Part shown: piece after piece, positions 16,272 to 39,552 of the stretch
How positions within the stretch are numbered: the first letter of the stretch is position 1
How the letters are laid out: every line of letters starts with the position of its first letter
Assembly (NCBI GenBank): GCA_002189035.1
Contig: CM007991.1
Span: forward strand, 4,030,001 to 4,094,000
Source: Utricularia gibba
Taxonomy: Eukaryota > Streptophyta > Magnoliopsida > Lamiales > Lentibulariaceae
Direction of reading: 5' to 3'
Length of the DNA stretch: 64,000 nt
The notes under the pieces: model-generated
The model's database searches: none
Told to the model about the DNA's origin: nothing
The model's input: only the letters and a program-made list of their open reading frames with translations
Made by a program: the position numbers and the translations under genes

Positions 16272-18486
16272 ATGAGCGGGAGTGGAGGAAGCTCGGAGAG
16301 CTCCTCCGGCGCGTCGGAGGAGAGGAGGAAAGGAAGGGCGCGGGCGAGCCGTACGTCTCAAATCTTGTTTTACGCCCACCAGAACGATCCCGCTGCTGTC
16401 AAGAAGCTTCTGGAGGAGGATCCTTCTCTCGTGAATTCCCGAGACTACGATAATCGGACTCCGCTTCACGTCGCGGCGATCCACGGGTGGATTGGAGTTG
16501 CCAAGTGTCTTCTCGAGTACCAAGCCGATGTCAATGCTCAGGATCGATGGAGAAACACGGTAGTTGCTTTATTTGTTTCTGCATGAATCAATTCGTCTAC
16601 GCTTGATCGAATCGAATACCGGTGTTTTTTTATTACTTCTACTGGACAAGCCTTTGGCTGATGCTGAAGGATCTCATAGATCTCGGATGATCGAGCTGCT
16701 CAAGTCCTATGGCGGGCTTTCTTACGTACGTTCTGTTCACGCTCTCCGCTATCAGCTATCTTCTCTCCTGGATGATTTTGTTCATCATTGCCCTGTAATT
16801 TGGTACCCCCTTCCTCTGTTATTTTTGAAATCTTCTCGCGCAGGGCCAGAATGGAAGTCACTTTGAACCAGGCCCGGTTCCTCCCCTTTACCGAACAAGT
16901 GCGATTGGGAGATTAATCATTCCGAACTCGCCTTCTCAAGCTCTACGGTCATAGGGAAGGCTAGGATTCCATCCTTTTTCTGTCACTCAATTTTTGCTAC
17001 TGATCGTCTCAAAAAGCAAAAAACTAGATATTTTGCTCCATGGTGGTTTCAGGGTTCCTTCGGCGAGATACTCAAGGCTTCCTGGCGTGGTACACCTGTG
17101 GCTGTCAAGCGCATTCTGCCGAGTCTTTCAGACGATAAATTAGTCATGTGAGTACCTTGCTTTTCTGGCGGCTGACTTTCTACACACGTGAACTATGAGA
17201 AGGAAAAAAAAGTACTAGCAGACTCGAAGGAATGGCTATAGCTCATCTTTCTGACTAGTAAGTGTTCATTGGCAAGCCAGTCAGGACTTCAGGCATGAAG
17301 TGAACTTGCTGGTAAAGCTTCGCCATCCAAATGTAGTGCAATTTCTGGGAGCTGTTACTGAAAAGAAACCACTGATGCTAGTAACTGAGTACTTAAGAGG
17401 GGTGAGGGCATGTATTTGGAATCTCTCTATGTCAACGTTTGCACCTTCTAATGTGGTTGGTACAGGGAGACCTCCATCAATACCTGAAAGGAAAAGGGGC
17501 ACTCAATCCATCAGCGGCTATAAATTTTGCACTGGATATTGCCAGGTGAGAAAGTCTCACCAATTACTGCATGTAAGATACTTATACGACACTGAGGAGT
17601 TTGCCTTGGCCAGAGGCATGGCCTATCTTCACAGTGAACCAAACGTCATTATACATAGAGACCTTAAGCCTAGGTGAGTTTGTATGAGTTCGTAACCATA
17701 TGGGAAAAAATCATAATGCTCTATTCACTTTCATCTCTTTAACAGCAGCAAAGCCATTTTTCATGTACTTCCAGGAATGTACTTCTTGTCAGTGAAGACC
17801 ACTTGAAAGTAGGCGATTTCGGCCTCAGCAAGCTCATCAAAGTACAACATTCTCATGATGTTTACAAAATGACTGGAGAGACAGGAAGCTGTGAGTAACT
17901 AACTGTCGTTAATCTGGCACACAGCAAGGGTTATTTCTAATAAAGTTATAAATTTTTTTTAAAAAAAATCTCGAAGATTGTTACATGGCTCCCGAAGTGT
18001 TCAAGCACAGGAAATATGATAAGAAGGTGGATGTTTTCTCATTTGCAATGATCATGTACGAGGTAAACCTTTTTCCTAACTTTGGGGCATAAAACTGAAA
18101 AGTGATTTCGCAAAGGCAAGTAGAATCACAAATAACTCACTGCTGCTCTTGCTACAGATGCTTGAAGGCGAACCACCATTTTCGAACTGCGAACCATACG
18201 AAGCAGCTAAATATGTGGCTGAAGGCCACAGACCAATGTTCAGAGCTAAAGGTTACATCCCTGAATTGAGAGAGTAAGCAGCGCCAATAAGATGTCTTGA
18301 ACTTCAACAAATCCCAATTCATGATAAACGATATACTAAGAGGGAACTTACTTGATTAGGCTGACGGATCAATGCTGGGCAGGCGACATGAACAACAGGC
18401 CACCGTTCTTAGAGATTCTGAAAAAACTAGAGAAGATCAAGGAAATGCTACCTTCAGATAACCACTGGCACATATTTCCATCTTGA
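16272..18486 (+). pseudogene. VIK: Ankyrin-repeat protein kinase, VIK/ILK family, frameshifted
   Basis: Raf-like plant integrin-linked kinase: N-terminal ankyrin repeats (RTPLHVAAIHGWIGVAKCLL), then a kinase domain with glycine loop IGKGSFGE, VAVKR lysine, HRDLKPRN catalytic loop and DFGLSK. It matches Arabidopsis VH1-INTERACTING KINASE (VIK) closely by eye. VIK acts with a brassinosteroid-receptor-like kinase and phosphorylates a vacuolar sugar transporter. Exons: 16272-16559, 16651-16725, 16844-16959, 17053-17147, 17281-17401, 17466-17545, 17614-17673, 17775-17890, 17977-18062, 18158-18273, 18360-18486. They total 1280 nt, one short of 427 codons. The shift lies at the C4 run 16883-16886, between VPP and PNKCDW. 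One more C restores 426 residues. Exon 3 ends at a GC donor (AAG, then GCTAGG), and the activation-segment YRYMAPE reads YCYMAPE. It is either a consensus error or a decaying copy. Confidence 0.88.
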
Positions 18487-18755
18487 AGGATCAGCTTTCA
18501 GTATTTCAATTCTTTGTTTGGTGTAACGTCAGATGACAGAAACAGTTACCACATCCTGTGTAAAATGCTCATTCACAAAATCTTGAATTCAAAAACACAG
18601 ACAGATATGAAGGAAACCTGTATATGATCAGGAACTTTTCATTAAGAATAACACAACACTTTCTGAAATTTATTACGGTTCATGGAAGCAAAAGTGAAAA
18701 TTGATCTCCAATCCTTGATAATATTACAGTAGCCATGGAACCAAGAAAGAAAAGT

Positions 18756-20134
18756 TTAGATGAGCTTCTTCTTCTCAAAGAAAGTCTTCAAATGCCATAG
18801 CTGAATGCCGGCAACGGAGAGAGCAAAAATAATAGAAAAGAGTCCCAGCCAGAATAACTTGGAATTGGTGGAGATATTCAGCTGCTGCATCTCTTGTTCC
18901 CTGAGAATCAGGATTTGGTTTCCATCTAAGAGCAGGGCTCAAAAATTTTCTAGTGACTTTAAGTTTCATTACCTCTCGCGTAGATAATACATATCTTCGT
19001 TAATCGTTTGCACCGTGTCAAACATTTTCTTCAGCTCCAGTTGCATAAGCTGGTGAAAATAAGGAGAAGGTCCATGTATCAATAACAAGAGCGATGATGT
19101 AATGGCTACTAGAAAAAAGAGTAGAAAACACATACAACTACTTTCTGTCAATCCAACAATCTTTATTCAGAGGAGAGTGCGCAGATTCTGGTTTAGTAAA
19201 AGATGGTAAAAAAAAATGGAGCACCAAAGAATACATTTTCACATATCATTCATTGCTGAACAAATCGCATTGGAGATGGTGAATGCTTACTTCGACAGAG
19301 CCCTTTTTGGCAACGTTTCCCCAATCCTTGGCAGCAATACCAGATTTCCAATCAAAGTCGACGGTCATTGTAGAAGATGGCTGATGATCAGAAGCAAAAA
19401 AGCAGGCCATGTAGTCTCCTGCCTCAACCGCTTGGAAGGCAAAATTACCCTCGCTTACATGGTCTGAATAGTGATAGCTACTTCCACTCGCAGAGGTAAC
19501 CTGCATATTCCCCCCAGTCAAAGATATTTGTATGATACAAGAGGAAAACAAAAAAAAAAAAAAGAAACTCATTTTCAGATATCAACACAATAAGCGATAC
19601 AGTTAATCAATGCATTGCTAAAATATTCAGTAGCACACGTGATTAGCAAAATGCATCCACAAACATGAGCTAACAGTTATCAAAAGAGGGGAAGATCGAT
19701 ATTTTCTACATACCCAAAAGTATGAAATAAATAACAAGCAAGTTATTAACCAACAGAAAATGGAGAGCATATTGAAACAAAAAAAGCTAAGATTTTTCTT
19801 TGCGGGTGTTAATTTTTACAAAGGACCGCATGATTCATTAGCACAAAAGAAAGAAAACCCAAACTCCTAACACTGCTGAAAACGCGGAAAAGAAAAACAA
19901 AGGGATTCAAAGGATAACTACCCGAACTGTGACTTTATGTGAATCAGGCAAAGGGGTCCCTTCATTGGGATTAACAATATGATACTTTCCCACACTCATA
20001 GCATTGCTCTTGATATCCTCTGATATACATTTCGTATGACCCGGCTCCAGATCAAATCTGATCGATTCAACCCGGCTCCATAGCAGGAAGCATGTGACCA
20101 AAACAACGAAGACGCCGCACCTTTGGAATTGCAT
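18756..20134 (-). CDS. p24-delta family ER-Golgi cargo receptor
   Basis: EMP24/GP25L/p24 family protein of 214 residues that cycles in COPI and COPII vesicles. Exons on the minus strand: 19922-20134, 19291-19500, 18973-19049, 18756-18900 (645 nt). In order: signal peptide at about residues 1-24 ending WSRVES; GOLD domain opening IRFDLEPGHTKCISEDIK; a membrane-proximal coiled coil (LELKKMFDTVQTINEDMYYLRERE); a transmembrane helix (LFWLGLFSIIFALSVAGIQL); and a cytosolic tail LKTFFEKKKLI with a KKxx dilysine COPI-retrieval signal. The start at 20134 is chosen because it gives a clean signal peptide. The gene lies tail to tail with the VIK-like gene, 269 bp apart, and from memory the same pair is adjacent in Arabidopsis (At1g14000/At1g14010). 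Confidence 0.93.
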
Positions 20135-20514
20135 ATTCGTACCACAAACAACAGCAATAAGAAATGACAATACCAAAAAAGAAAGCTCCAATTTTTTCGA
20201 CCGCAACTGGATTCAGGGTTCCAGTGAAGGGGTTTTCTCGTTGAAATTCCTTCTCTGATTACAAAATCGCAGAAGTCAAAGACCACACGAGCAAATCCCT
20301 ACGCCGCCAATAAATCCCGTTCCTCCTCGGATTCAACCCCTGACTCCTAACATCGAGCATCCATTATTTCAATTTCCGTAAGAAAATTAAAACGTCATAT
20401 AATCGTGTCAGAAAACAACCGACCTCCAATCAGAAACATCCACGTGTGCTCCGAGACGACCGAGTCGCCCCGCCTAAGTTCCTCAATTCTCTCTGTCCAC
20501 TCAGAAGAATGACG
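20135..20514. other. 5' flank of p24 gene
   Basis: Mixed-composition sequence, probably the leader and promoter of the p24 gene. It contains a G-box-like CACGTG-related motif (CCACGTGTGC near 20440). No coding frame was recognised. Confidence 0.4.
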
Positions 20515-21025
20515 CAATTATGAAACCACCCCTCAAGAATGCATAATTATGAAATCACACCACAATAAGCCTCAAAATATGGTCACGTCTACAAAATCCA
20601 AAAATTATGTAACCGACCTTAAGAATCCATTTATCATGAAATTACTCTTAAAGGATCCGTATTATGAAACCAACCCTCAAGAGTCCATAAATTAGGCAAC
20701 CATCCCTCTATAATCCATAATGAAACCACCACTAAAGAATCCATATATCAAGAAACCACCCATCAAGAATCAATAAATTATATATATATATTATGAAAGC
20801 CACTCCTCAAGAATCCATATATCAGGAAACCACTCATCAAGAATCAATAAATTCTATATATTCTGAAAGCCACCCCTCAAGAATACATACATATATTACG
20901 AAACCACCCCTCAAGAATCCATAACTTATGAAACCATCACTTATGAAACCATCACTCAAGAAAGCATAAATTTTGAATCCAGCCCTTGAGAATCCATAAA
21001 ATTATGAAACCCCTTTTAAAATCCC
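20515..21025. repeat. Degenerate tandem repeat, unit about 30-38 bp
   Basis: About 14-16 diverged copies of a unit whose core is CCACCCCTCAAGAATCCATA, usually preceded by TTATGAAA and followed by AATTA. Clear copies start near 20527, 20660, 20715, 20755, 20810, 20870, 20907 and 20950. Unit length varies through short AT insertions such as a TA run near 20778-20792. It is an old minisatellite between the p24 and MYB genes with no coding potential. Confidence 0.85.
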
Positions 21026-21360
21026 TAACTTTGGTTGGTTCCATGTGGGCCAACAGGTTGTACCGGGCCTGATTCTGGGCTTGGGAACAGACACAGAAAA
21101 CGAATTTGGACCACATTATCCAATCGGAATACGTAGCCCGAGTCATCGCATTCGAATCTCTGAATCCTAAACTGTAGGCTTTGCAACTTACAGATTATAT
21201 TGAATTTTTTTAATTACATGGATTTCTAAAAGTGGAAACTAGAGAAAAAAAAAACACTCGGAAGCTTCATGGCAGTTATTGGTAATCTTTTGGTACATGT
21301 GGAAGTGACAACTTCTTGAATTTGCCACATTAGCTGAAACATATCCCGTCATCGCCGCCG

Positions 21361-22572
21361 TTAGAATCCCGGCAGCTCCATCGGCGAGCTCACCATACTC
21401 AGCAACTCATTCCAATAGTTCCTCGTATCCTCCATCTCAAGGAACGCCGGAGTCTCCCCGACTGAGGGGATCCCGTTGTAGCAGTCGCCGCTGCTGTTGT
21501 TGGGGACAGCGAGGTCCACGGCGTCGCTGATATAACCGCCGAAATCGAGTTGCTGAAAGGACCCCAGTTCGTCCATGTTGCCGCCGCAGCTCAAGCTTCC
21601 GATCTCGCATGAACCCGTGCTCGTCCCCGCCGCGGCTGCGGCCATCACATCGTTGGCGATAATTGTCGGAACCACCGCCGCGGAGGGGAAGTTGAGCGTC
21701 GAGGTTGGTGACTCCAGCACCGTCTGCGACGAGAAGAAGCAGTTACTCGAGGCACCGCCGGTGGCCTGCCACACCTTGAGCACGTCCAGGCACGGCGGCG
21801 ACGACACCCTAAGCGGCGGCGCCGGCGGCATGATGGACTTGTGTAGCAACTGCAGATTCGAGATAATCTTCGATTCTCGAGCCAGGCGCGCCTCCGCTTC
21901 CAGGCGCGCCGTCTCCCACTGCGCCATGTGGCTGAGATTAGCCGCCTGCTTCGACTGCGCCACCCCGCCGGAGTTGCTCTTGGGCTTATGTGTCACCGGG
22001 TCGATACCCATTCTCGTTAATCTCTTCTTCAGACGCGTGTTCCAGTAATTCTTGATCTCGTTGTCGGTCCTCTTGGGCAGATGAGCTGCTATGGCGGACC
22101 ACCTACGACTAATCCGAATTAATTAATAAACATAATCACAATTATCCCTTAATCACACTCCCAGACTCTTTCCAATTAACCAATCCATACAATGTGGGAC
22201 AAAATGTTCACCTGTTCCCTAGCAAAGCATGCAGCCGGATAATCGTCTTCTCCTCGTGGGCACTAAACTTCCCTCTCTTGATATCCGGCCGGAGGTAGTT
22301 CGTCCACCGCAGCCTGCAACTCTTCCCACACCTCTGCAACCCTGAAACCACACACACACACACCATGCTCACTCGCTCCAGCCTGATTCAAGCTGTTAAA
22401 CACAACAACAGCACAAAAGATGGGCGCGCGAGAGGGAACCTGCTTTAGCAGGGAGGGAGCGCCAGCTTCCATGTCCGTTCTGCTCGATGTACGCGAGCAG
22501 CTTCTGGTCTTCTTCTCGAGTCCAGGGGCCCTTCTTGAGCTCCTCCTTGGCCGGAGAGTCGGGTGTCCCCAT
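21361..22572 (-). CDS. R2R3-MYB transcription factor, subgroup 9 (MIXTA-like)
   Basis: Nuclear activator of the MYB16/MYB106 (MIXTA) type, which controls conical epidermal cells, trichomes and cuticle genes. Exons on the minus strand: 22440-22572 (133 nt), 22212-22341 (130 nt), 21361-22102 (742 nt); 334 residues. The 133/130 exon sizes are the classic R2R3 pattern. R2 starts [18 protein letters not shown]3 contains [20 protein letters not shown]. The subgroup-9 signature [18 protein letters not shown] follows [12 protein letters not shown]. The rest is Ser/Ala/Pro-rich and ends [17 protein letters not shown]. Oddity: the N terminus is [17 protein letters not shown] instead of the usual MGRSPCCDKxGLKKGPW. 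The ATG at 22572 is the only sensible start in frame. Intron 1 holds a short CA repeat. Confidence 0.94.
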
Positions 22573-24413
22573 CGGAGCGGCCGCACAGATGATGTCTCTC
22601 GGGAGGATGAAATGAGACCGTTGTAGTAGAGAGAGGGTCTTGGTGGGGGAGATCCAGAGTGTTGGGGTGGTGTGTGGGGGCTATAAAAAGTAAGAAGACA
22701 CCATAAATAGGGTTAGTCTTGTGGGGGAACCATATTATGGGACATTGTAAATACTTTACCTAAATAGATTTATGAAGGAAAAATGCCCTCCCGAATCATT
22801 ACACATTAAAAAAAATGCACTTTTATTTCTCGATGCGGGCTACAAGAATTGAATGCCCCAAATAAATTTCCCATAAGTCGATAACTATCTATCTATCTTG
22901 GCGTTCCGGGAAGCGTCGCGCCTTAAATACGCATGCAAATGCATTGCATGCACCCCTACCATGTATGTGGGGTTCGGCCTCTCCAGGGGAAGCTGGCGCA
23001 GGGGCGACGGAATCTGCTGGCTTCCCCGGCGGGGCTGCCGGAGGCCACTCTGCAGAGGTGAATGCACTCGACACGATTCAGAGTTGGGTCCAACGTACCG
23101 CAATGCAGACAGCCGAATTCAATTTCCGGGGTGACTTTCGACGATGAAACGTACAGTATGGATCCCGGGTCGTACCCGGATTTTTAAAAATTCTCCCCTG
23201 GTCGGCATTTTCAACAAAAAAAAAACAAGAGTTACACAAAGTAATTGTTATGAATCACACGGCTCCCATACCCCATGAAACCCGGTTGCATCCACACAAC
23301 CAACCATTTGGTTCCAAACCGAAACCGAAACCGTATATTTACAGAATTGGACCTATAGTATTGCCAAATGCAGAAATATCTTTTTTTTTTTCAATTAGTA
23401 CCTAATCAGGGAGCGTGTTGGTGGGAGGATGCATTAATCCAACAAACACGAATGGAGGAGGAGGAGGAGGTTCGTGGGGCTGAAAGCCGGTAAGAATTAA
23501 TCAGGAGATGATCTCACGGTTTTCAGTGCAAGAACATTCGTTCCCCACATTTTACACGAGGGCATTTATTAAAACGGGGGCTTCCTCAACTGGAATTTAA
23601 GGGGAATGCCGTTGATGTCTTAATGCTAATGTTTATATATACTACAAGTGGAAGCAGTGGCCGGACCCCCCTCCACCTCCGCCGTGTACTAATTCATTCA
23701 ATTTCGCCCTAATTAAGACAAGAGTGGCCTCCAGGGCGCACGTTAGCCTCAGGTCATTAGATGGGAGCAGAAGAAGAACCCCACCGAATCGCAGACCCAA
23801 TCTTACAATTTTCGAAATGGGCAATAAAAAAACATATCCAGCGTCGGAACCCTCCGTTTTCCCTAATTTTATAATTTCCCAACCATCGATTTCATGGGTG
23901 ACGCTCCAAGGAAACAAATATTCTACGAAATTAAAAAAATATTATCAGTAAAAAAATAGTAACACAGTGCCCCCATCCTTAGATTTAATAACCATAAGAA
24001 TAGAAAAATAGGAGGAATTAAATGCGCACGATCGGGACACTGTTCGGACATGGGGGGTGCGGGGCCTGACGTAGGGATGACGCCTGGATGATGCGGGGAA
24101 TTTAATTATCAACAAGGTTTTGGGGCCCACTACCTCGTCGTCTGCCTCCCGCCAGCGGGGCTTTCATTTCAGTTGCAGGGAAATCAGGTTTTTTAGGTGC
24201 ATGGATTATTGCTCCATTTGGTATTTTAATATGAGTGCGTAGAGTACCATCTTTTTCTATTACCATTTATTGCATTGTGTGTTGTTACTGCAGACACCCT
24301 CAGTTCTTCTTCAAGTGAAGCCAGCCACATGTGGAGAGGATGATCCGAGGATGGTGCGGAAAACTCTACTGTAACAGCGCCGGAAGTCGGACGGGAATGG
24401 CCGGCCGCGGCGG

Positions 24414-24443
24414 CGGAGGGAGGGAGGGAGGGAGGGAGGGAGG
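24414..24443 (+). repeat. (GGGA)n microsatellite, possible G-quadruplex
   Basis: About seven tandem AGGG/GGGA units directly after a CGG-rich stretch. The plus strand carries well over four G3 tracts separated by single A residues, a strong G-quadruplex-forming pattern. No gene overlaps it convincingly. Confidence 0.85.
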
Positions 24444-25439
24444 CGGTCTGTGTTCTCGTCTTCCTTGTATTGAATGAAAAGGGAGGGGAAAGGACGGGGA
24501 GTAGGTGATGTATTTTGGACCTGGCGCAGAGAGGCAGAGTCTTATCGCCAACGACATTAAAGCCTGCGATCCTTCTTCCACCTTCCCTTCTGCAAAGCCA
24601 TTCAAGACAAGAGGAGGTGCTCAGATTCAACATTTAATTCAACACTTCTCCTCCTCCCTTTTGTTAACTCTAAAGCCGTATAACTGCAAACCAATTAATT
24701 TTACTGTGCTGATGATGAACCAGCAGAAGGATACTTCAATCTCTCACCACTGATTCCCATGCAGCACCAGCAGCAGCAAGTAAAGAAAGAAGAACTGACT
24801 ACGCTTCTACTGTTATCGGCCTCTGTAAGTACTCTGAGAGTCAGACCAAAAAAAAAAGGAAACCATAGCTTTTACTGCTGATGCATCCAGCGTTCCCCTC
24901 TTCGTTTCTTTATCTGTTCCTTTAAAGTGGAAGCAAATGGGCTGAAAACTTCTGTTACCTTGAGGTTTCCATGTGTTCGTAGCCACTGCCCTCCAGACAC
25001 ACACCCCCTTGCAGCCATGCAACAATTACATTACATGCAGTTTCATTACAAGATGATGTAGACTTTGATTAAATTCATACAATTCATAATATTAAAAGTG
25101 ATTTAGCTAGTACATTATACAAGATTTATATTCAAATTTACATATATATCATTAATTAATTAATTAATACATGTATATCATTTATATATTTATTTTTTTG
25201 AATATATGGATAATGTATACTAATGGAATAAGTAAATAATTATATCTATAACACTAACTTACTTAAATTTATATTTTCGTATATAAAATATTATACAATA
25301 ATTACAATATACTTAAATATATTAATATCAAACCAATTTTAATAATATTAGACCTTGTTTTAAATGAAGGTATAAGGTTGCTTTATGACAGATTTAATAA
25401 AATTATATTATTTGATATCTACGTATAATTATACTTTAC

Positions 25440-25469
25440 ATATGAATATAATAATTATTATATTCATAT
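25440..25469. repeat. Perfect 30-bp AT palindrome
   Basis: The sequence reads identically on both strands (it begins ATATGAATATAATAA and mirrors from there), with no spacer. It lies in an AT-rich stretch and could extrude as a cruciform or be the centre of an old AT-rich inverted-repeat element. Confidence 0.85.
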
Positions 25470-26936
25470 AATACCTTCATATATACCATATATGTATACC
25501 CAAGTAAAGATATGAGTATTTTTATATTCACATATTTGAATTTAACTAAACTTAAACAATTTAAATCCACTAATACCTTAAACACATCGACCAATCAAAC
25601 ACATCAACCAAACAATCCATTATGATTGAGGAGGGAGGTGTAAAGAGGGAGCACCAAATAAATTACACCATTTGGTTCCAATTATTACTGGTGTAAAGAG
25701 GAGAGATGTAATAACCCACTCGGCTGGTCCCGTCCCGTAAACCAAAAGCTGTTAGAAATGTCTGTGCCGGCAGTACAGTTAATACGGTTGACTGTTTCCC
25801 CACATAAAACACCAATACCAGGCGTCTTTTCAAACAGCCAAAAACGCATGCATTGTGCACACATTTATTGTTTTGGGGGACTCCTGAACCGGGAGGGGGC
25901 TCGGCCCATCGAGCCGAACCGAACCGAACCGCACCACCTGGTTACCTGTCTGCCCTCTTTACTGCATGCACTAGGGCGTCATCATTTTGTCGTGGCTAGC
26001 AGCTGTCTCTCAGGGGGGTCTCCGCTTGCCCGCTTTTGGCCCGGCCGACTCAGCTCGCCATTCCGATCGATCGGAATGGAATATTTTGGGAGGGCGGTGT
26101 GGTTGCGACTTGCGCCTACCTTATTTATGTGATATAATTGGGGAATTATTGGGCTAAATGTAATGGTGCATAATTGAGACATGGGCACGCATTAAACCAA
26201 CACAGAGTTAAGGTATGGCCTTCCATCTCCAATTACCAAAATGCCTATCACTCTTGACCTACGCACCGCACCCCTTTGGAAAATAAAGGGGTAACGTCGA
26301 TTATAATAGAATTGAAATTTCTGATAAAATTAAAATTTGTATATTTTCGGAAGTGTGTTTTTTTTTGGAAATTATTATTATTAGATTTATTTTTTTTTAC
26401 ATATTTAATTATATTTATTAACAGTTGTATTTTATAAATATATAAATAAAATATGGTTTTTATAAATTATTTATATTATACAAACATTATATAGATTTAT
26501 AAATTATATTTTATATTATTAGTATTTTTTAAAAAAATAAAAAACACAATATATATTATTGTAAATTTAATTCTTAAAATCAGTTTTCGAAAATCATTTT
26601 TCGTTGAAGAAAATTTGATATATATTTAAAAGGTACAAGGTATTTTGGAAATGAGAATTAATTCTATAAGGAATCAATTAGTTTTTGAGACATTGCAAAA
26701 GCTTATTTTACTTCTTCAAGAGATAGAAGTGAAGCAAAGAAAAAGCACATAAATATTATTTTTTGGGAAGGGGAAATTATTTCTATTGTGTTGGGCCGCG
26801 TTTTGGAGGAAAATGGGACGAGTGTTGGATCTCTTGCTCATCGTGCAGGCCCATTTTTTCTGTGTTATCTTTCCTTGATTTTTTGTTTTGGATTGAGAAG
26901 TGGTTGGGAATTTTTCGCAGAAGGATTGCGCTTGGG

Positions 26937-28221
26937 ATGGCAGTTTGTGCATCAAGCATCTGTTTTTCAAGGTGTTACTCGATCCCCAGCAGGGTAAGAT
27001 CAAGCAATGGAGGTCGCGCTACCATGGATACGAGTAGGAGGGATTCGGGAGGTCGCAGAAGTCGATATTGCCCTGTTTGTGATAGACGGCATTTCCTTGG
27101 CTCTGTTGTTGGAAATAGGCTGTTGCCCCTTCTTCATTCTTCTGCTTCTGATGAGGGCGGCTTCGGGGACCCCGTTGTAAGATCCTAATTTCTGCTCCTG
27201 GTGCCCTGATTAATTTGTATGATGATTGATGCTGCAAACTGCTGTTGAATCGATAGGCGGTGATGAATAGAATTCATCCTCGAAAGCCGGATTGGTACAA
27301 TGAATTTTATGCATTGGTGATGAACAAACTGATGGAATCGTATGAAGGAGCGGTGAGTGCTTTTCATGCGTTTTTCTCCACTAGATACATCTCCATGCCT
27401 GAAGCTGCTGTTGGTGACATTGAAAGATTGCAGCATACAAATCACAGCTTTTTGCTAACCTGAAAGGAAGATCAGACAATGTTCTGGAAATTGGAGTTGG
27501 GACTGGTCCAAATTTCAGATACTATGCTGACTCTCCCGGCATCAAGGTTGTTGGAGCCGATCCGAATCCCCAAATGGAGAAGTATGCGCTTGCAGCAGCT
27601 GAAAGGGCGGGACTTCGGCCCTCCGATTTTGGCTTTGTCCAAGCAGTATGCACCCTTTGGCATCATTAGCATGCCCTGAGATTCACCGAAGTAGACACCT
27701 CCCATGAACTGTGTTCTTGGAGCAGGTTGCAGAAGCGTTGCCACTGGCTGATGCTTCCTTCGATGCTGTTATCGGAACTCTTGTCCTCTGCTCAGTCAAA
27801 GATGTCGACAGAGCTCTGGCCGGTATCCCATCACATAAGAATCCCTAACAATCTCTCCTTGCTGCACTCAACCTGATTCTCTCCTGGTGCAGAGGTGAAG
27901 AGAGTTCTGAAACCAGGGGGAGTCTACTTATTCGTGGAGCACGTCGCTGCCGACGGTAACAAAACACTCACTGCATTCCGCTTATTGGCATCCTTCTCAG
28001 ATGAGCGATACCTCCTGCAACTCGCAGAGGGAACAATCCTGAAAACCGTGCAGCAGATTCTGGATCCACTGCAGCAGATTGTAGCGGATGGATGCCATCT
28101 GACCAGGAACACCTCAAGCAATATTGCTGGAGCAGGATTCTCCAGCTACGTTGTCAATGAAGCGCATCTTTCCAACTTCTCAGTGATCAGTCCCCATTTC
28201 TATGGAACAGCTTACAGGTAA
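26937..28221 (+). CDS. SAM-dependent methyltransferase, METTL7-like, probably plastid-targeted
   Basis: Class I Rossmann-fold methyltransferase of 302 residues. Exons: 26937-27176, 27257-27352, 27427-27645, 27726-27822, 27893-27955, 28028-28221 (909 nt). SAM-binding motif I is VLEIGVGTGPNFRYY, followed by KVVGADPNPQM (ribose-binding acid strand), EALPLADASFDAVIGTLVLCSV and EVKRVLKPGGVYLFVEHV, the usual UbiE/METTL order. The first 60 residues or so are Ser/Arg-rich and look like a transit peptide, and HPRKPDWYNEFYALVMNK precedes the fold. Exon 3 begins after GAAAG at 27426. Exon 5 splices at a GTAACA donor to give DEGTILKTVQQILDPLQQ. The stop TAA (28219-28221) sits inside a perfect donor (AG, then GTAAGT), so an alternative downstream end is possible. 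Plant relatives (such as At1g69523, from memory) lack a firmly known substrate. Confidence 0.9.
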
Positions 28222-29669
28222 GTGAAATCTTCCCATCCACATGGGAGAATGATTGACATGTTTTGATTTAGTTTGCAAAATGTCCCATTAAAAATATATG
28301 ATCCCAAAATTCTATAGGGAAGTTTAGTAGATGTTCTAAAGTTGGGTTTGAAGGGATTTTATTTAATAAGAGTATTTAGTAAGAATTTTTAAATTAAACT
28401 GTAATTTATTGTAAATACATTTAAAATTGTCTATCAAATTCATTTTAAAATTTAATTATGTAAAATTTGTTTCATCCATATAAATAATCCTGTCATTGAC
28501 AAAAAACATTAAATCATATAAATAAAATAAGGTACTAGATTACCTCCAATAACTAAAAACAAAAAAATCATTTTTTCCTTATTCATTCGAATGATAGAAT
28601 ATTTTTTAAAACTGAAAAAAAAGTAGGGATATTTTGCAAATACATTTTAAAATGAGAGTTATTATGTTGATTTTATCAAGTTTTCCCATTGTATGTACTT
28701 TTTTTGGGAAGTTTTCCCAAAAAAAGTTTTCATTAATTTATAAAAGTACCCCATATATGTGACCATCTTCGCATTTCCATTGCTTGGAGGATCAAAGAAA
28801 AGTATGAAAAAGATTTGGGGGCAAACGGCAAAATAACTCCTCCCTTTCTTTATTTAACCTTCGAAACCCTAAAATCATGAAACAAGTGTAGCGCGACGCC
28901 AGTCCCCACGTCGCCGTGCTCCCGCCCCTTCAGGTTATTATCAAAATGTGGGAGCTACAAGATATACAATCAATTTGGTTCTCATTCGTTGATGATTGTT
29001 TGGATTTTCTCTAGTTTTTGGTTTTCCAAATTTTCGATCTTGGCGTTGTTCCCGTATATTGCAAGAATGTGAATTTATGGATTGGAGTTTCATTTGGAGC
29101 CTTACGTACTCTTTCACCGTGGTTTCGTTGATTACTGGGGGTTCGGAATTGTTAACTGTGAATTACGTCAAGGGCTCAATGTAGAATGGTGGAGCTTGAA
29201 TGTTGTAAACATGTATTGCTCTGAATTTGCCTCAGGTTCTCTGTCGCATGCCAGTACATTGTAGCCCATATATCAATTCTTTGGCATCATAGTACAGGCT
29301 CGTGTTTCAGGGGCACCCTTTGGGTTCCTGCATCCTCTTGCCTGTCTCCAATTGCCACTACATTTGTATATCCCCACATTCTTCACTATCACTGCAATCT
29401 TGTTCACTCGGATTAAGATTTTGTTGTTCAGATACAAAGTGTCATTTGGCGTGTTGCCTTATCGTAGACATTCCTTTGAGTTGCCTAAAGAGATTGTCAT
29501 TTGCTTATTTTTTTTTTCTCTTCACCTTCTTGTGCATAACTGCTTAGAAAGAGGCTTGTTGCATATTGTCCTTGGCTAAGAACTTTGTTCTTTATTACAT
29601 AAAGTATATGCCAACTAAAGGGAAAGGAATATCAAGGAGAATCTTGGTACCTGGACACTCGTAAGAAAT
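28222..29669. other. Intergenic spacer
   Basis: 28250-28760 is AT-rich. It contains a hairpin at 28698-28726 with 13-bp perfect arms (CTTTTTTTGGGAA) and a 3-base loop. 28880-29600 has mixed composition and a GC-rich patch near 28890-28935 that could be a transcript leader on the plus strand. No coding frame there is convincing. Confidence 0.45.
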
Positions 29670-30549
29670 TTAGATGCTCTCGTGGAAGTTAGCTGATCTT
29701 GATGAAGCTGCTGGATTTGCCATGAGAGCAGCCATCGATCCATCCATGGTTCTACTTCTCTTACTATAGGGATCAGTAGCCTGAGAGAAACCAGCAAATG
29801 GCATCATCTTCTCATTCTTGATTCCCATTGTATGCCATACAGAACTATTTGCTGCTTCAATGGGATCATCAATCTTCATCGGTGGAGCTTTATCCTTAGA
29901 AGCGCAGTGTGATTGAGACAAGAACAACCAATAAAACAAATGGCTTAGAAAATGGACATGGAAACAATGACTTCGGAAGAGCCTGGAATAGTGAACTTTA
30001 CTTCATCTTTTCCTTGATCTTGGGCTAACATCCATAATCTTTTGCAGGTCTTTGCCTTTATGTTGTTACTACCCACAGGTGGAAGACTTTTGCTTTTGGA
30101 TTTTTGCTCATTTCCACCAGTGAGTTCAAATCCATCGTCCTGCGAAACCAAAACTTGAATCAGAAACAGAGCCTCCCTCCTCGCCCTTTGGATCAAAATG
30201 TTCTTTTTTTTTTACAGCTCGCAGGAAACTAACTCAGCCCATGACCGTCAAGAGGGCGAAGGGGTTAATCTTCACAGTATCCCAATTCAGAAAGAAAGAA
30301 ATTCAGAGTGATCTACAACCTTCCCATTTTGTTGAACTGCTCCAGTCTCTGAAACATCTGCATCGCCGATCCCGCGAATAGCTTGATTGAAGAATCATTC
30401 AACGCCTTGGGCATTATTGATCAGATTGCTCGGATCACCGTGCGGCTCCGCTCCCCCCACATCGGTTCTTTATTCAGAGGGTCGGTGGGGTCCACAACGC
30501 CGGCGCAATCTTTAAGTTCGTGGATGTCCTCCGCCGAGTCCAGATCCGC
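29670..30549 (-). pseudogene. Unrecognised protein gene, 3' part clear, 5' part damaged
   Basis: Three minus-strand exons fit in phase: 30320-30549, 30002-30139 and 29670-29894, together about 198 codons ending in a TAA at 29670. Blocks include ADLDSAEDIHELKDCAGVVD, DPSNLINNAQGVE, GIGDADVSETGAVQQNGK, DDGFELTGGNEQKSKSKSLPP, KTCKRLWMLAQDQGKDE and IDDPIEAANSSVWHTMGI. The first exon carries two lesions. A missing base in the C6 run at 30453-30458 separates LNKEPMWG from AEPHGDPSN, and an in-frame TGA at 30395-30397 falls between GVE and FFNQ. No start codon was found: upstream is a TAG that could be either a stop or the acceptor of a further exon. The composition is hydrophilic with no recognised domain. 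It is either a pseudogene or a real gene with sequence errors. Confidence 0.5.
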
Positions 30550-30914
30550 CTACCCCCGATCACTGACACGTGCCGGGAATGGGACCATCACCATGCTTTT
30601 ACACGACGGATAGACGTCATCATCCACGGCCATTGTTGGTTCCCATTTCTTGATCCCACGGCTCCCCTTGATCGGTCTCCCCTCACCACAGACAAGCTTG
30701 TCGTGTCCTAAAAATCTCGTGTCTTAGGCTTCACATTTGAGGAAATTTGCTTTCGTGGTTTGTAAGCGAGTCAAGCGTGTGGTTGGTGTGTTGCTTTTGC
30801 TTGCTTTGTGTGGAGCAGTAGTTAACTTGGTCGGAATTCTAAAGAAAGATGGATTGGATGGTTGGTCGGAATTCTAATCTTGAAGCACAGTAATTGATTT
30901 GGATAACCGGAGCT

Positions 30915-31873
30915 TCAGATGGATGCCGCCGTTGGAAGTAGAGCTGAAGTCTGGGAGTGGAAGCCTTGAAACAGGACTCGTGGGCCGCAGCCGCGTCCGC
31001 GGGGAAGACAGGACACGCGATGAACTTGGAGGCGGACGTGTCCACGCACAGGTAAACCTGGTAGAGCTGATAGTTCCCCTGTGTGTCCACATTGCATTCT
31101 ACGTACGGCAAGTACCCCAGTCCTTGCTGAATGGCCTTCCTTATCTGGTTCACCCCGTAAAACTCCCCTGGAATAATTCCTATCATGCCAAAGAGACACC
31201 CAAATCTGAGTTGGAATGAGTACTCAGAAAATGCGCTAAGGTTTCCTGTCTGCACCTGCGGTTTTGAGTGTTGTGAGAAGATTCGCTTTGTCTCTGAGGT
31301 CGAGGGCGGCCTGGAAGTAAGCGTGCTGATTCAGGGAGGAGCAGGTGCCGTGCTTCTGCCACTCGTGTCCCCAGAAACTCATCCCGTCGGCAGACGGACA
31401 CGCCAGTGTCGGCCATTCCGTTCGTAGCCTTGGCAACAGATCTGATATCTGGAGTCCAACACCACCAGGAATACTTGCAATTAGCTGCATTGCGACATCA
31501 AAAAGAGAAATTCCACTGACCGACCTGTTTCGGGTCTATCCTATCGCCCTGCCGGCAATTGTCCGGGTACTCGCCGGAGTTGTAGTCGGGCCAAAGGCCG
31601 TGGATAGTGAAATCTTTAGCTGGGGTTCCTGCCGTCGGCAAGCAGCAACTTTGCGTTGTCTCGCAAAGGGCCGGCGGCCACTGCACAAGAAAAGAAAACG
31701 AGCCACCGTCCCACCGGTAAACTCAAGAGTCGGAGATTTTCTAGACATTGAACCAATGACTTGCAGGTTACCTGCTGCACCAAGTAGAAGAAATCAAAGC
31801 TCGTAGAAGAGCAGATTGTGGATGACGACAGCAGCACAAAAAGCAAAGACGCGAGTCCCTCCCTTCTCTTCAT
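30915..31873 (-). pseudogene. RNase T2, S-like ribonuclease (copy 1), C-terminal frameshift
   Basis: Secreted or vacuolar T2 endoribonuclease that cleaves single-stranded RNA through a 2',3'-cyclic phosphate. Exons on the minus strand: 31772-31873, 31525-31680, 31256-31448, 30915-31179. A signal peptide covers about residues 1-25. The active-site blocks are both intact: FTIHGLWPDY (His61) and FWGHEWQKHGTC (His114, Glu115, His119). The ATG at 31873 is the first real one. As written, the frame runs on to 30839 with a non-family tail. Adding one base at the G4 run 31001-31004 restores FPRGRGCG, the usual CPVFPRG end with its disulfide cysteine, and stops at 30915-30917 for 238 residues. Likely role: phosphate recycling, senescence or defence, by family. 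It is tandem with copy 2. Confidence 0.88.
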
Positions 31874-31928
31874 CACTGCGTTTCTATCCAAATTCCAACC
31901 CTACGCTGCAACACCACACAAGTTTCCG

Positions 31929-31937
31929 TATTTATAG
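31929..31937 (-). promoter_or_regulatory. TATA box of RNase T2 copy 1
   Basis: The minus strand reads CTATAAATAC about 60 bp upstream of the ATG at 31873, the normal place for a plant TATA box with a short leader. Confidence 0.6.
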
Positions 31938-31989
31938 GGACTTAGCCTATGATTAGTTTCAGTGAAGTAAATAGAATATTATTAGAATA

Positions 31990-32520
31990 AACACTTATAT
32001 TTGATTAATTTTAAATTGAAAAAAATTGGAATAATATATTTGACCATTCAATTATTTTTAATTATTATTTTGCAAACAAATAAATAAATTATTCTGTAAA
32101 TATGTAAGGATTGGATTGAGTTATTCATTTTGTAGACCTCTTATATTGGGCATGTTATATTTCAATAATTTACTGAATTAATTCTGTTTAATTTTTAAAA
32201 ATTCTAATTTTAATCATTTTATAATAAAATAAAAAATTTTGATCATATGATTAACTTCCTAAATTATTAAATTTCTCAAATTTCTATTTTAATGATTAAA
32301 TAATAAATTAATTATAAAAATTATATTATTAATTTTTTATCTTCTAAAAATATATTTATATTATAATATTATTAAAAATTATAATATATAGTTTATGTTA
32401 TTAAATTTTATATCATCACATAAAACAGTTTTATAATAATAAATTAATTTTATTAATATAATTTTAAAAATAATTCTATTTTACATAATTTTAAACATAA
32501 ATAGTAGTTTCACTTTGTAT
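31990..32520. repeat. AT-rich dispersed repeat (copy A)
   Basis: Very AT-rich spacer between the two RNase genes. The part from about 32180 to 32500 is recognisably similar, block by block in the same order, to 59085-59420: ATTTCTC, a run near TTTTTTATCT, TCTAAAAATATATTTATATT, and CTACATAATT-like ends. This suggests two old copies of one non-coding mobile element. The ends and target duplications could not be fixed by eye. Confidence 0.5.
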
Positions 32521-32692
32521 TTTATTGTGTTTGTTTATTTTGCATTGCATTTATTGAAAAAAATAACAATACAAAATACAAAGTGAAAGCACAAGCTTAT
32601 TGTGGCAAGGCTTGATGTGATTGGACCGAGGTGGCCGGAACCTTTCCTTATTGGCTATGGCGATCCGTGAAGTATGGTGACGACGACGTCGT

Positions 32693-33771
32693 TTAAAAGG
32701 AGGGGAACGATATGCTTGAAGGGCAAGGTCCCTCGGTTGGGAAAATGGGGCAGTCGATGAACTGGGTACCGGAATGGTCGACGCAGAGGTAAACCTCGAA
32801 CAATTGCTCGTCGCCGTAGGAATCCTTGTTGCATTGGATATACGGGAGATGCCCAACTGCACTCTGTATCGCGCTTGTCACGCTGCTCAGACTGTAGGAA
32901 TTGCCATTGGGTTGGATTCCTGAATCAAAAGGTAATGGTCGTTGGTAATGTGTAATCGCGGGGTTTAGAGTTGGAAGACTGTCTCACCTGCTTGCGCGAG
33001 AGCTTGGAGGAGGTTGCTTTGGCTTTTCAGTGTCAGGGCTGCGTTGAAGTAGGCGTGCTCATTCAACACCGACTCCGAGCATGTCCCGTGCTTGTCCCAT
33101 TCGTGCGTCCAAAAGGATGTGTCGTCGCTGCTGGGGCAGGAAAGGGAAGGCCATGCGCTTTGCAGTTGGGTTAACAGGTCTGAAATCTGCGTATTCTCTC
33201 AAGGTGTTAGATTATTCGCTTCAATGGCGGGTAGTGGTTCATTGAAATTGTGGTTACCAGAGATGGATCAAAAGGGTTGCTGGGATCGCAGTTTGAGGGG
33301 TATGTGCCATCATTGTTATTTGGCCAGAGGCCGTGAATTCCGAAATCCGATGGTGGCTGCCCTGTTGTGGGGTAGCAGCATCCTTGGCTAGTGTCACAGT
33401 ATGATCCAGGCCACTGTAGTCATCATCAAACTCAACGTGACTTTCTGTAAACTGAACCATTGGCCCTTTTTTTTGTTTTGTTTTGACAGCCATATTACGA
33501 GCAGCAATTGCTTATTATACCAGAGAAAAAACATGTCGACACCGAGCAAAAGAACTATTACGAAGGCTGATGGTTTTTCTTTGTAAAATGCTAGCTCAAT
33601 TCCATGTGTATTTACTTCATGTGCCAATGAATGACTGTGAGACTGCTTATTATGAAAAGAACTCATACATACCTGTTGAACGAAGTAGAAGAAATCATAA
33701 CCCTGTGCAGCGGAGAGAAGAGCAAGAGACTGCAAGAGAAGCAGTCGTAGGAGCAGGGAAGAAGATGACAT
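32693..33771 (-). CDS. RNase T2, S-like ribonuclease (copy 2), intact
   Basis: Complete secreted T2 ribonuclease of 226 residues. Exons on the minus strand: 33673-33771, 33258-33413, 32988-33186, 32693-32919 (681 nt), with the same three intron positions as copy 1. A signal peptide covers residues 1-23 (LLLRLLLLQSLALLSAAQG). The active-site blocks are FGIHGLWPNNN (His60) and FWTHEWDKHGTC (His113, Glu114, His118). Paired cysteines are at CDTSQGCC and NCD. The C terminus is CPIFPTEGPCPSSISFPSF, so the closing cysteine is kept. Copy 1 differs at many positions, so the duplication is not recent. Lack of extra basic residues fits S-like rather than self-incompatibility RNases; this is an inference. 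Confidence 0.93.
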
Positions 33772-33815
33772 GTTTATTCTTCTTCTGATTCTTCACTGTT
33801 ACAACAAAGCTTGCT

Positions 33816-33825
33816 CATTTTATAG
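33816..33825 (-). promoter_or_regulatory. TATA box of RNase T2 copy 2
   Basis: The minus strand reads CCTATAAAATG about 45-55 bp before the ATG at 33771, implying a very short leader similar to copy 1. Confidence 0.6.
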
Positions 33826-33829
33826 GCGG

Positions 33830-35253
33830 GAGCCATCCAAAACTCAACAATGGCATTCCCTTCTGATCATTAAGAGGAGGTGGAAGCAGGTGGACTTTGC
33901 CAGGCATATTCCCAGAGCTTGAATGCATGCGGTACGGTCAAAGCTTGATGGTCGCGCAGTATACATTATAGACAGAAAGTTCTTCCCGAGACTAGGGTGA
34001 AAATCAAATGCTAAAATTCCAAGTTTCTTTGGACAGTTAAGGAGTTGCATTCTGTACCAGTTAGACTCGGTGTTGCATTTAAAATAAGGATTTTTTTTTT
34101 TCATTCTAAAAATAGATTATTGCCCCAGGCCCATTTTCGTAATAAATGCATCTGTAGGCAGGGATAATGGTGTTAGTGAATGTTTCAAAATATGTGATCC
34201 AGACCTATGTTTTCAAATTGGTATTACAAACCGAACCGGGACTGATTCGGTTCAAATTTTGGTTTTGATAATTTAAATCCAGTTTAGATTTGATCGATTT
34301 AAAAAAGATGATAATTTTAAATAAAAGTAAACTATAATAATGATAACTTGCTAAAAACCGGACAGGTTTGAAAACCCAGATGTAGACTCAAATTTTATGA
34401 TTTTTTTATAAAAATTAAAAAAAAATCTGCTTTTAAAATAGTACTTTTAGTTTTCTTGTATTAATTATTAAGGTAGAAGAAAAATGGTTAGAGAATGAAT
34501 TCTAAAACGTGAATTGAAGGTACCCGTGACTAAAACCGAGCCCGAGCGAAGCCGCGTTCAGACTTGGTAAAGGTATGAACTTTCGTAGAGGGGTTCTTGG
34601 CTGCGCTACAAGTTCGCCGAATTCGTCGCCTTTGTTGATTTTCGGCCGTTTTTTCTTCCTCTTTCCGTAGGTGGGTTTCGTTGGTTTGGTCTCTCTCTCT
34701 TTTCCTTTTCCCCCTTTTTTTCGTGCAGCCATGTTTCTTTTAATTAGGGTTTGTTTTGTTCTGATCTGCCATAGATTGGGTATTAGTTGCTTGCTTGATT
34801 CTTGAATTGCAGAAAATTTCTGATCTCGCTGCAAATGGCAGCGTGATCAGCGGTTTCCTACCTCTTTTGTTTTTATTGTTATTGAGGGATTAGAAATTTA
34901 GTTTTCAGCTCATTTTGTTTATGGGCTTTATTGGTTGGGTGGACACTTTTGGATTGCGTTGGTGGATCCTGTTTTGTTGACCCTCGTAAGGTGGGTTCTT
35001 TTATTTATTTTTGTTAAAGATTCCTTCGTTGCTTGTTCGACTCGTCTGGAGTAGAAAAGGGAAATTTGCATTTCCTGAAACTTTTTTTTGAAGTCATTTC
35101 CCTGTTATTTATCTTTAATTATTGTGAAGTGGCTTAAGTTTGTTTTGTCTTGAGATAGCTCCTTTTCATATGTTGTGTTCAGGGATTTGTCTCTTGTTAT
35201 TACTGTTGATTGTGGTGGAGGCCGTTTGAAGAGCTTTGCAGTGTGTGGCGAAT
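33830..35253. other. Intergenic spacer and RING-CH leader
   Basis: 33830-34500 is spacer without a recognisable gene. 34500-35253 has the pyrimidine-rich look of a plant 5' UTR with a long leader intron before the ATG at 35254. A lysine-rich minus-strand frame at 34502-34834 is judged to be a shadow of this pyrimidine bias. Confidence 0.5.
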
Positions 35254-37069
35254 ATGAATCTCTTTTCAAAGCCTCAATTTATTGAGCCTGACCAGCCAGG
35301 GTCATATGTAAAGAAGCCTGAACTGGCTGGGTCCTCATCTGGGTGTTCAGTAGAAGACGGGAAAGTGGTGATCGTAGTGGATAATGAGGCTGGTGAAGAA
35401 ACTCCCTTGATTGGAATTGGGGAGTGCCGAATTTGTCAGGAGGAAGATTCCCTCAAGAATTTGGAAAGCCCCTGTGCGTGCAGTGGGAGTCTTAAGGTAG
35501 CATCTTGTTTTTATGCATACAGTGTTTATTCGAGCATTCCATTTTTATGTTTCAGTGTTTGTACTTTTCTGGATGTTATATGCTTATCGTGTTTTTGATA
35601 ATTGTTATATACTTAGCGTTTTTGTTTTCTGAATTCTTTGTATGCGTCCTGTTCTTTTTCTGACTGATGTATATTTCCTTTTCTCCCAGAATCAAAAGCT
35701 TCTTCTCTCTTAATTTCATAATGAAAAGTATAAATTTATAATCTATCTGAAGCCCATATTGTTGTCTTTAAATTTTCTCTGCTCATCCAATTTCTGATAC
35801 ATATTGTTTCACAGTATGCTCATAGAAAATGTGTTCAGCACTGGTGCAACGAGAAGGGTGACATTACTTGTGAAATTTGTCATCAGGTACAGTCATTCAG
35901 CTTTTGTTTAAGCGTCCTGATTTCTGATCCTCTTGCTTCTTATGGAAGGTTATTATGCCTCTAACTTTTTCGTGGCCTTTGTTGATCATTTTACGAAAAC
36001 TGATGTCGTTCATGTTGTGCCAAGGAATTTCCGTTATGATCTTTCTGAAGTTTTTTTACTCCTTGTTTACATAGTAAAATATGCAAAATATCATCGAATG
36101 CAGTGCACCACTTGTTTGACCTTAACATTATTTTGACGTGTAGGTATATCAGCCTGGTTATACTGCTCCTCCACGCCCCCCTTCTGATGAAACAAACATA
36201 GATATTGGGTGAATTAATATGTCTTATTTATGTATTTTGTTTGTGAGTGTGTGTGTGTCTAAGCTTCTGTGTTTTATGATATATTTGACCTCTAGCGTCA
36301 GACCTATAGATTCCTTCCCTTTCTGCTTCCAGGGGAGTATGGCAGATTTCTGGTACCCCATTGGATATGAATGATCCCCGTGTTCTTGCAATTGCTGATG
36401 CCGAAAGACATTTATTTGAGGCTGACTATGATGATTATAATGGTAGCAGTAGCAGTGGTGCCGCATTTTGCCGTTCAGCTGCCCTTATTGTAAGTTATTT
36501 TTCCTGCATATTGAGGATTTCGTTGTTCTGTTGCTCTGGATATAGGTTTCTTTTGAATTTGCAAGTAATGTTATTTTTTTTCTTAGTTGATGGCTCTCCT
36601 GCTAATGAGGCAAGCAGTATCCATCACAGATGATGGAGATACAGAAGGGGAAGATGGTGCTGCAACGTTCTTATCAGTAAGTGATCAACCAACCGTTTCA
36701 TTGCTTTCTTATCTCTTCACTTGCATGAACTCGCTTTATTCCTTTACGACACAGCTATTCTTGCTTCGAGTTGTTGGCTTTCTTTTGCCTTGCTACATCA
36801 TGATGTGGGCCATTAGTATCTTACAGCGCCGAAGGCAAAGACAGGTACTTGTGAATTCTAGTCAAAATTGCCTATGAGCCATCAGGATGATGCCTATTCT
36901 TTTGCAACAGGAGGCAGCAGCACTGGCGGCCACGCAGTTTGCAATTGTTGTTCAATCTGCACAAACCCGAGGCCTTCTTGTTGCCTCATCTGCCCCAGCA
37001 GTAACTCCTCTGGCCACTCCTACGCATGCCACTTCCTCTCAAGTGCCTCCTCAGCTGGAAAATGCTTGA
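35254..37069 (+). CDS. RING-CH (MARCH-type) membrane E3 ubiquitin ligase
   Basis: Membrane-anchored ubiquitin ligase candidate of 291 residues. Exons: 35254-35496, 35815-35886, 36144-36208, 36333-36489, 36587-36676, 36755-36844, 36911-37069 (876 nt). The C4HC3 RING-CH domain spans exons 1 and 2: ECRICQEEDSLKNLESPCAC, then HRKCVQHWCNEKGDITCEIC. YQPGYTAPP follows, as in the plant family. Two hydrophobic helices come from exons 4-5 (SAALILMALLLMRQAV) and exon 6 (LFLLRVVGFLLPCYIMMWAISIL). The tail is Ala/Thr/Pro-rich. This layout matches plant proteins such as At1g14260 (from memory). The start at 35254 is the first ATG before the conserved part. Substrates are unknown. Confidence 0.92.
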
Positions 37070-37970
37070 TCCACGTTCGTGATCAGAATCTCATATCCAA
37101 GGACCACCTAGTCCAAAAGTTAGTAGCCGAATCAAATGTTTGCAGTGAGTGCCGTCATTCCCTAACGTTCAGAACGTCACCATGTGATAATATGTATGTA
37201 TATATACTCTGGCGGACCTCACCCTGGTGGGCACTGTCAACTAATTTTACATTATGTATCATTGCTAAGATACCAGGGATCAGGAGCTGCTGTGTACCCA
37301 TGTGATTCTTGTACCCTTACCGTTGTTAACTCATCTTCTTTCTTATTTTTCTCTTGGCGAAGCATCATGTTCTTGATCCGTTTGTACTCTTTGGTTTGAC
37401 TAGCAGCTAACTAGAAACGCGGTGGTCAACCCTATGAGTTTGCATTACTGGTGTGACAAAATCAAAACCATTTAATTTTGTTTCAGGATATGACTCGGCT
37501 GTTTGCAGCTGCCTGTTTTCAATTATCATCTTGATGGGATAAGGAAGAAGAGGGTATACGTGTGCTGCATATCACCATCCATGCACAGGGTTACTGATAA
37601 ACCGGGAATGGGATCTTGTTTCTTATGACTGGTTGTGATTCCTGCCATGTGAAATGGTTGAACAGACCATCAGCTTGCGATATTCTCTTCGATAAAGCCA
37701 TATTTTTGCATATCTGCACATGCACTCTACGCCACACAAGCTGCATGAGCACCGAAAACTCACTTCCAAAATGCTGATCAGATTTGGACCGCCCCACAAT
37801 CTCTGTCTTTGATACTGTAGAGTACGGACGCACGCTATGGACCACTCCGTTGGGGATCCATAAAGGTCATTGTTGAATCAAGAAAGCTTTGAAGCGTCCG
37901 AGTGTGAACGTGAAGTCATTGTCTGAACTCTTGTTCTCTTCTTTTTGTTCCCTCCCTGCAACAAAAAAAA
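37070..37970. other. 3' flank of RING-CH gene and PKS promoter region
   Basis: No coding frame was recognised. 37070-37500 is probably RING-CH 3' UTR, and the pyrimidine-rich stretch just before 37971 is the PKS leader. Confidence 0.4.
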
Positions 37971-39158
37971 ATGTTGACACCTGTTGTTTCCCCACGTTGT
38001 CCAACCCCCAAGAGAAGCGCTCAAAACAGCACCGTGGTTTCTCCGTTAACTGATGGGGAAGAAGAGAGCAAGAGATGCGACCAGGAGCTCGACATTTTCG
38101 ATGCCGAGAGGTACTTCAAAGAGGATCTGAATCCTGCTGCTGCTGTTCCTGATATTGGTGGTGGTGGTTTTGATTGTCGGAAGAGATTATCGCCATCCCT
38201 TCTTGCCAACAAAAGAAAGCTGCTGCCTTCGATATCCGGCGCCAGCGTTTCTTCAGGATCAAGTATCAATAGCAGGAGCATTTTGCTTCATACAAGAAAA
38301 TCAGACAGGAAGACGATCGTTGACTCCGCCGCCGTGATTTTCGGAAGATGTTGCTGTACAGGTGAGACGCTTCTGTCTCCTTTAAACTTGGGTTGGTCAA
38401 AATGGAAAACGACGGATTCGATCTTGTCCAAAGCCACAGTTCTATACAACGTCAGTAAGTCATTTTCGTTGGTGGATGCGCAGGCACGAATTCTGTTGAG
38501 ACTTTGACCGGAAAGTCCAGTAAGGGATCGGGGACGAAAACCCATGTCGACTGTTTAAGCAGCAAGATGGAATACAGATTTCAAGACCCGAAGTTGAGAA
38601 TGAACTCCTGCCGCTATTTCAGCTTCCCAACTCAGAATCCCACCACCGGAAATCAAGCAGACTGCGTGGGGATACGCCGGAAAATACGGTCTCATGTTCC
38701 AGAGCATGAGAAGAAACCTGCAATCTCCGCGGGGAGAGTGAAAGTGATTCGAGTTCCGATTTATTCGAAATTGATATCCTTTCCACTGGGAACGGATTCT
38801 CAACGCCCCGGAACTGTTACGCGCCCAGTGAAGCGAGTATACAGTGGAGTATCATCACCGCAAGCGCCGCGGAGATCTCCGTCGCATCGGACTCCGACAA
38901 GCTTACACACAAACCAGGATTCAAGCCGACGGCCAAGCCCGGAGGACCAAAAAGCTTTCTTTCAGGTTCGTCACCTCAAGCAACTTTAACAAGGTTTAGA
39001 AGACAGAGACTCATGCTTATTAACTTTCAGGCTGCAAGAGTGACAAAGCAGTTGGGGTTGTCGAAGACGCACACAAAGAGCAGTCTTTGAGAAAGTCACG
39101 AGAAGAGAAGCAACACCACACGCAGAAGCACAATCCTTCGGTGCATTACACAATATGA
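37971..39158 (+). pseudogene. PKS: PHYTOCHROME KINASE SUBSTRATE family protein, frameshifted
   Basis: Plasma-membrane-associated plant signalling protein of the PKS1-4 family, which acts with phytochromes and phototropins in phototropism, leaf positioning and hypocotyl growth. Exons: 37971-38361, 38484-38965, 39031-39158. Family blocks in order: LDIFDAERYF, SGSSINSRSILL, FGRCCCTGTNS, SDLFEIDIL, a PSEASIQWSIITASAA block and FLSGCKSDKAV near the end. The last blocks are in a different frame from the first ones. The total is 1001 nt, and one extra G in the G4 run at 38731-38734 gives 334 codons (333 residues) and joins AISAG to ESESDSSSDLFEI. Without it, translation continues in the wrong frame into the intron. 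From memory, PKS2 and SBH2 are near neighbours in Arabidopsis, as PKS and SBH are here. Confidence 0.87.
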
Positions 39159-39552
39159 TTCTGTGACAATTCTGCTCATGGATTCATTTTCATTTGTTTC
39201 TGAAGTATATCATCGAGGTTATAGTATCAAAACTGACCTGAAAACCGAACCAGAAACCAACCACAGAACACTCTCAATGTTTACCATCAGGAAGAATCCA
39301 AAATCAATAACAGATAACTTGAAAAACAACAGTAAGCACAGGGTATTGCATCTCAGAGCTCACGAACAAAGTAGAGAGGGGGGATAAGGTGTTCCAAAAA
39401 AAGTGTGGGTCTGAATTTCAGGCTGCAAACTCGAATCTAGTATACAACAATACGCCACAAGGAAACATCTTGATATTTACAACTCATCAATCTCCGCATG
39501 AAGCCGAGTTAGGAATGTAAAGGCAAAACCTTTTGTTCATGAGTACTATCAA
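39159..39552. other. Spacer between convergent PKS and SBH genes
   Basis: Short spacer, probably holding the 3' UTRs of the two convergent genes. Nothing else was recognised. Confidence 0.4.

Follow-up and report, generated by a model that had tools for sequence, protein, structure and literature searches.

Single-base frame breaks in four Utricularia gibba genes are best explained as G or C bases dropped from a long-read consensus

Four genes in a 64,000-nucleotide stretch of the Utricularia gibba genome (C3:4030001-4094000, hereafter the window) are each interrupted by an apparent loss of one base. We consider it highly likely that all four interruptions are errors of the assembly consensus; in the plant itself the genes are very probably whole. 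In this model one G or C would have been lost from a short run as reads collapsed into the consensus. The error is systematic, specific to G and C, commoner in longer runs and assembly-wide. A preliminary description of the window had already favored homopolymer undercalling in a long-read consensus over four inactivations. Undercalling predicts deletions only, a location in G/C runs, a rise with run length, the involvement of essential genes too, and differences between two assemblies of one locus. All five predictions were tested, and all five agreed with what we observed in the window and in the genome searched (100.09 Mb, 516 contigs). The window features concerned are the following.

16269..18487, forward strand: VIK-like kinase gene (ankyrin repeats plus protein kinase; Pfam Ank and PK_Tyr_Ser-Thr), with an apparent -1 in exon 3 at C4 16883-16886
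29673..30415, reverse strand: CDF-like gene without a Dof domain (the "unknown" gene of the preliminary description), carrying a C-terminal CDF motif, with an apparent -1 at G3 (CCC 30371-30373)
30453..30458, no strand assigned: C6 run upstream of the CDF-like coding sequence, within the non-coding 5' leader; does not break the frame
30917..31873, reverse strand: RNase T2 copy 1 (PF00445), with an apparent -1 at G4 31001-31004, directly before the last conserved cysteine
32693..33771, reverse strand: RNase T2 copy 2 (PF00445), frame intact, used as control
37971..39160, forward strand: PKS (phytochrome kinase substrate-like) gene, with an apparent -1 at G4 38731-38734, before SDSSSDLFEID

The names VIK and PKS are those of the preliminary description and are based on resemblance; Pfam backs the ankyrin-kinase layout only.

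The four G/C runs at which the genes had been said to switch frame are all present (C4 at 16883-16886, C6 at 30453-30458, G4 at 31001-31004 and G4 at 38731-38734). Frame-aware alignment placed a single net -1 switch at 16883 in the VIK-like gene, at 31000 in RNase T2 copy 1 and at 38732 in PKS, so that the proposed position held for these three genes. It failed for the C6 run, which lies outside the coding sequence. The count of four genes, each with a -1, nevertheless stands, as the CDF-like gene switches frame at G3 30371-30373, about 80 bases from the C6. Apart from the single switch, the exons of the broken genes are open, and their splice sites and conserved residues are kept. In the aligned parts of the VIK-like gene, RNase T2 copy 1 and PKS we found none of the further lesions typical of pseudogenes (stops, insertions or larger gaps).

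Homologues that read straight through support each of these three switches. Once joined, the VIK-like protein was matched by Pfam over both its ankyrin and its kinase domains. Its paralogue at C328:1921019-1921153 is open, encodes GQNGSHFEPKPVPPPLPNKCDWEID within one frame, and has a C5 where the window gene has a C4, the run being one base longer. Past its switch, RNase T2 copy 1 encodes GRGCG, which aligns with RNase NGR3, a solved homologue (PDB 1vcz) that continues in one frame; no switch was detected by frame-aware alignment in copy 2, its neighbor. The PKS paralogue at C2:5037788-5038696, which served as the alignment reference for the -1 at 38732, is in a single frame throughout. Two other features of the VIK-like gene were observed. 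It seems to have a GC-AG intron at 16960 (AAG|GCTAGG), the corresponding donor of the paralogue being GT, and its kinase domain reads YCYMAPE at 17976-17990 in place of the usual YRYMAPE, a difference of one base.

The fourth gene corresponds to the C-terminal part of a protein resembling a cycling Dof factor (CDF). The C-terminal CDF motif is common to the window gene, to a Dof protein at C244:2262400-2263700, where it follows the Dof domain, and to a paralogue at C414:249770-250840 (reverse strand). The Dof domain is absent from both the window gene and the C414 paralogue. Alignment with this paralogue placed the C6 in a non-coding 5' leader, contrary to the coding break claimed there: the stretch with the C6 shows gaps of 2, 5, 4 and 15 bases as well as longer ones and keeps no frame, whereas gaps in the downstream exons are mostly multiples of three. 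The likely start codon follows the C6 at a distance of about 40 bases, where the window gene would begin MPKALNDSS... and the paralogue MPKVLNGSS.... The -1 falls within exon 1, at the reverse-strand G3 opposite 30371-30373, and its position was unchanged with frameshift penalties from 4 to 12. The support for this switch comes from one exon (15/31 identity to the paralogue) of a fast-evolving gene, and the error rate of G3 runs is low. There is a possible trace of an N-terminal IKLFG motif in both Dof-less genes, whose products might compete with CDF proteins; a literature search for Dof-less CDF proteins returned no match.

To place the window in a genome-wide context, we carried out a census of 37 GRAS and 8 HSP70 genes, comprising 53.9 kb of coding sequence. 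GRAS genes were chosen because their domain lies mostly in one exon, so that a switch inside it is visible. Two copies at contig ends (L045 and L051) and the GRAS pseudogene L052 were excluded, and switches in L043, L048 and L053, together with a second one in L046, were dropped as likely introns. Among the 45 genes we counted 24 net -1 switches and no net +1, all of them at G or C. Of the GRAS genes whose domain was usable, 13 of 37 were broken, each by one to three net -1 switches, as were 4 of the 8 HSP70 genes, including cytosolic copies that are 94-96% identical to an intact copy and carry no other lesion. On average, conserved coding sequence contains roughly one break every 2.2 kb, and about a third of the sampled conserved genes are affected. 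The broken genes are spread over many contigs, and breakage in the two families is unrelated to gene function. At 24 per 53.9 kb, about 3.3 breaks are expected in the window's coding sequence, which we estimate at about 7.5 kb, and the probability of at least four is 0.43. The four breaks in 22 kb match the genome-wide rate, and therefore do not form a local cluster.

The frequency of the breaks rose with run length. The proportion of G/C runs one base short was 4%, 14%, 50% and 100% at true lengths of 4, 5, 6 and 7, respectively, and runs of at least five differed from runs of four (Fisher p 1e-4); the assignment of a break to its run is clear at five and six, while for short runs it is partly a choice, in that we took the longest G/C run of an ambiguous stretch. 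In the census, 8 breaks other than the CDF-like site were read as G3 or C3. None of the 362 A/T runs of at least 4 in the census was affected. G/C runs of 7-11 were almost absent, with 4 seen against about 22 expected in 286 kb of non-redundant sequence, and A/T runs showed no such drop. Correctly read G5 runs had been raised as a caveat against a universal error. The G5 at 27916 is indeed in frame (KPGGVYLFVEH), but the caveat loses its force, since about 86% of the length-5 runs in the census are read correctly.

Redundant contigs that repeat parts of others (C422/C414/C416, C316/C412 and C241/C304) offer an internal gauge of error. One GRAS gene was assembled three times, as an open copy in C422 and as broken copies at the C414 end and the C416 start. 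Aligned with C422, the C414 copy shows 11 gaps and 0 substitutions and the C416 copy one of each. Between the C316 and C412 versions of another GRAS gene there are 10 gaps, each a deletion in the small contig C316, and 1 substitution. In C241 and C304, a truly diverged pair, the balance is reversed, at 16 substitutions and 2 gaps (Fisher p 4e-8). Even GG was rendered as G in duplicate contigs. The duplicates stem from small contigs or the ends of contigs, where coverage is probably low, and their error rate is not that of the interior of large contigs, which the census covers. No duplicate contig over the four window sites was found in the assembly. An HSP70-like gene shows the same apparent -1 at a G5 on both C304:2235823-2237462 and C241:16598-18237, which may reflect a systematic error made twice or a real change that the two have in common.

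Which of the four breaks could nonetheless be real? It is unlikely, though worth weighing, that one or two of them are true losses and the others errors. The CDF-like gene, short and without a DNA-binding domain, would be the best candidate, as its break falls in a G3, where the census places few errors, and it evolves fast, as its exon 1 identity indicates. Against such a loss, its remaining coding gaps relative to the paralogue are mostly multiples of three, and both the further G3/C3 breaks of the census and the shortened GG of the duplicate contigs show that runs this short are affected elsewhere.

We regard it as very improbable that the four genes are pseudogenes with a genuine single-base deletion apiece, perhaps the product of deletion-biased mutation in a shrinking genome. 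The assembled letters do not encode full proteins, and genuine-looking pseudogenes exist in this genome; one GRAS copy (C244:2105347-2106219), for instance, contains two stops, has lost codons and shows frame shifts of both signs. Like pseudogenes with a single-base frameshift, the window genes show a one-base switch in an otherwise recognizable gene; unlike them, they lack stops, insertions and relaxed sequence, and too many conserved genes are affected. A third of the GRAS and half of the HSP70 genes carry the same lesion, which never takes the form of an insertion and never falls in an A/T run, and identical loci that were assembled twice differ essentially by indels. A real germ-line slippage bias toward G/C deletions in Utricularia, under which about a third of the conserved genes would be disabled or else rescued by an unknown expression mechanism, is extremely improbable. 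The idea that the shifted frames are expressed through programmed ribosomal frameshifting or transcript slippage is barely credible: the switches do fall in runs, but the VIK and PKS paralogues are single-frame and do not conserve the switch, no other signal is common to the sites, and the run-length pattern is genome-wide and independent of function.

Consensus error is thus the reading we retain for the four breaks. Having observed the -1 switches, their location at G/C, the dependence on run length, the presence in conserved genes and the indels between duplicate contigs, we infer that each window site is an error and not a real deletion, and that the errors stem from the long-read-only U. 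gibba assembly. The PacBio assembly of this species has 581 contigs with an N50 of 3.4 Mb and was produced with HGAP/Quiver at 88x (PMC5793159); such coverage and processing would be expected to do better, and a literature search on single-base deletions by Quiver gave no match. A precedent is the azuki bean PacBio and Quiver assembly, in which a short-read check revealed 38,889 deletions, 8,611 insertions and 1,631 substitutions (PMC4663752). The indels were mostly in homopolymers, the long-read consensus was wrong at 91/91 indel sites tested by Sanger sequencing, and the authors noted that such indels would disrupt coding frames (PMC4663752). Both are plant assemblies with a deletion-dominated, homopolymer-bound error, few substitutions and broken reading frames. 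Unlike in azuki bean, we observed deletions only, at G/C only, with coding A/T runs spared in the census.

The artefact is technical and of low biological interest. If the source is the public U. gibba long-read assembly, however, many of its gene models will be split or truncated by error, and any published tally of gene loss, truncation or pseudogenisation that derives from it needs a short-read check. One such claim concerns a truncated DCL3 reported for U. gibba (PMC8333044). We identified a fourth Dicer-like gene at C213:2761967-2762970 in which RNase III domains are present. In its vicinity no frame gave a match to a helicase (Helicase_C) or dimerisation (Dicer_dimer) domain, in contrast to the three other Dicer-like genes. 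We rejected a frameshift artefact as the origin of this truncation, because the domain searches ignore frame and still lack a helicase match. The C213 gene thus agrees with the truncated DCL3 (PMC8333044), and that gene-loss claim stands.
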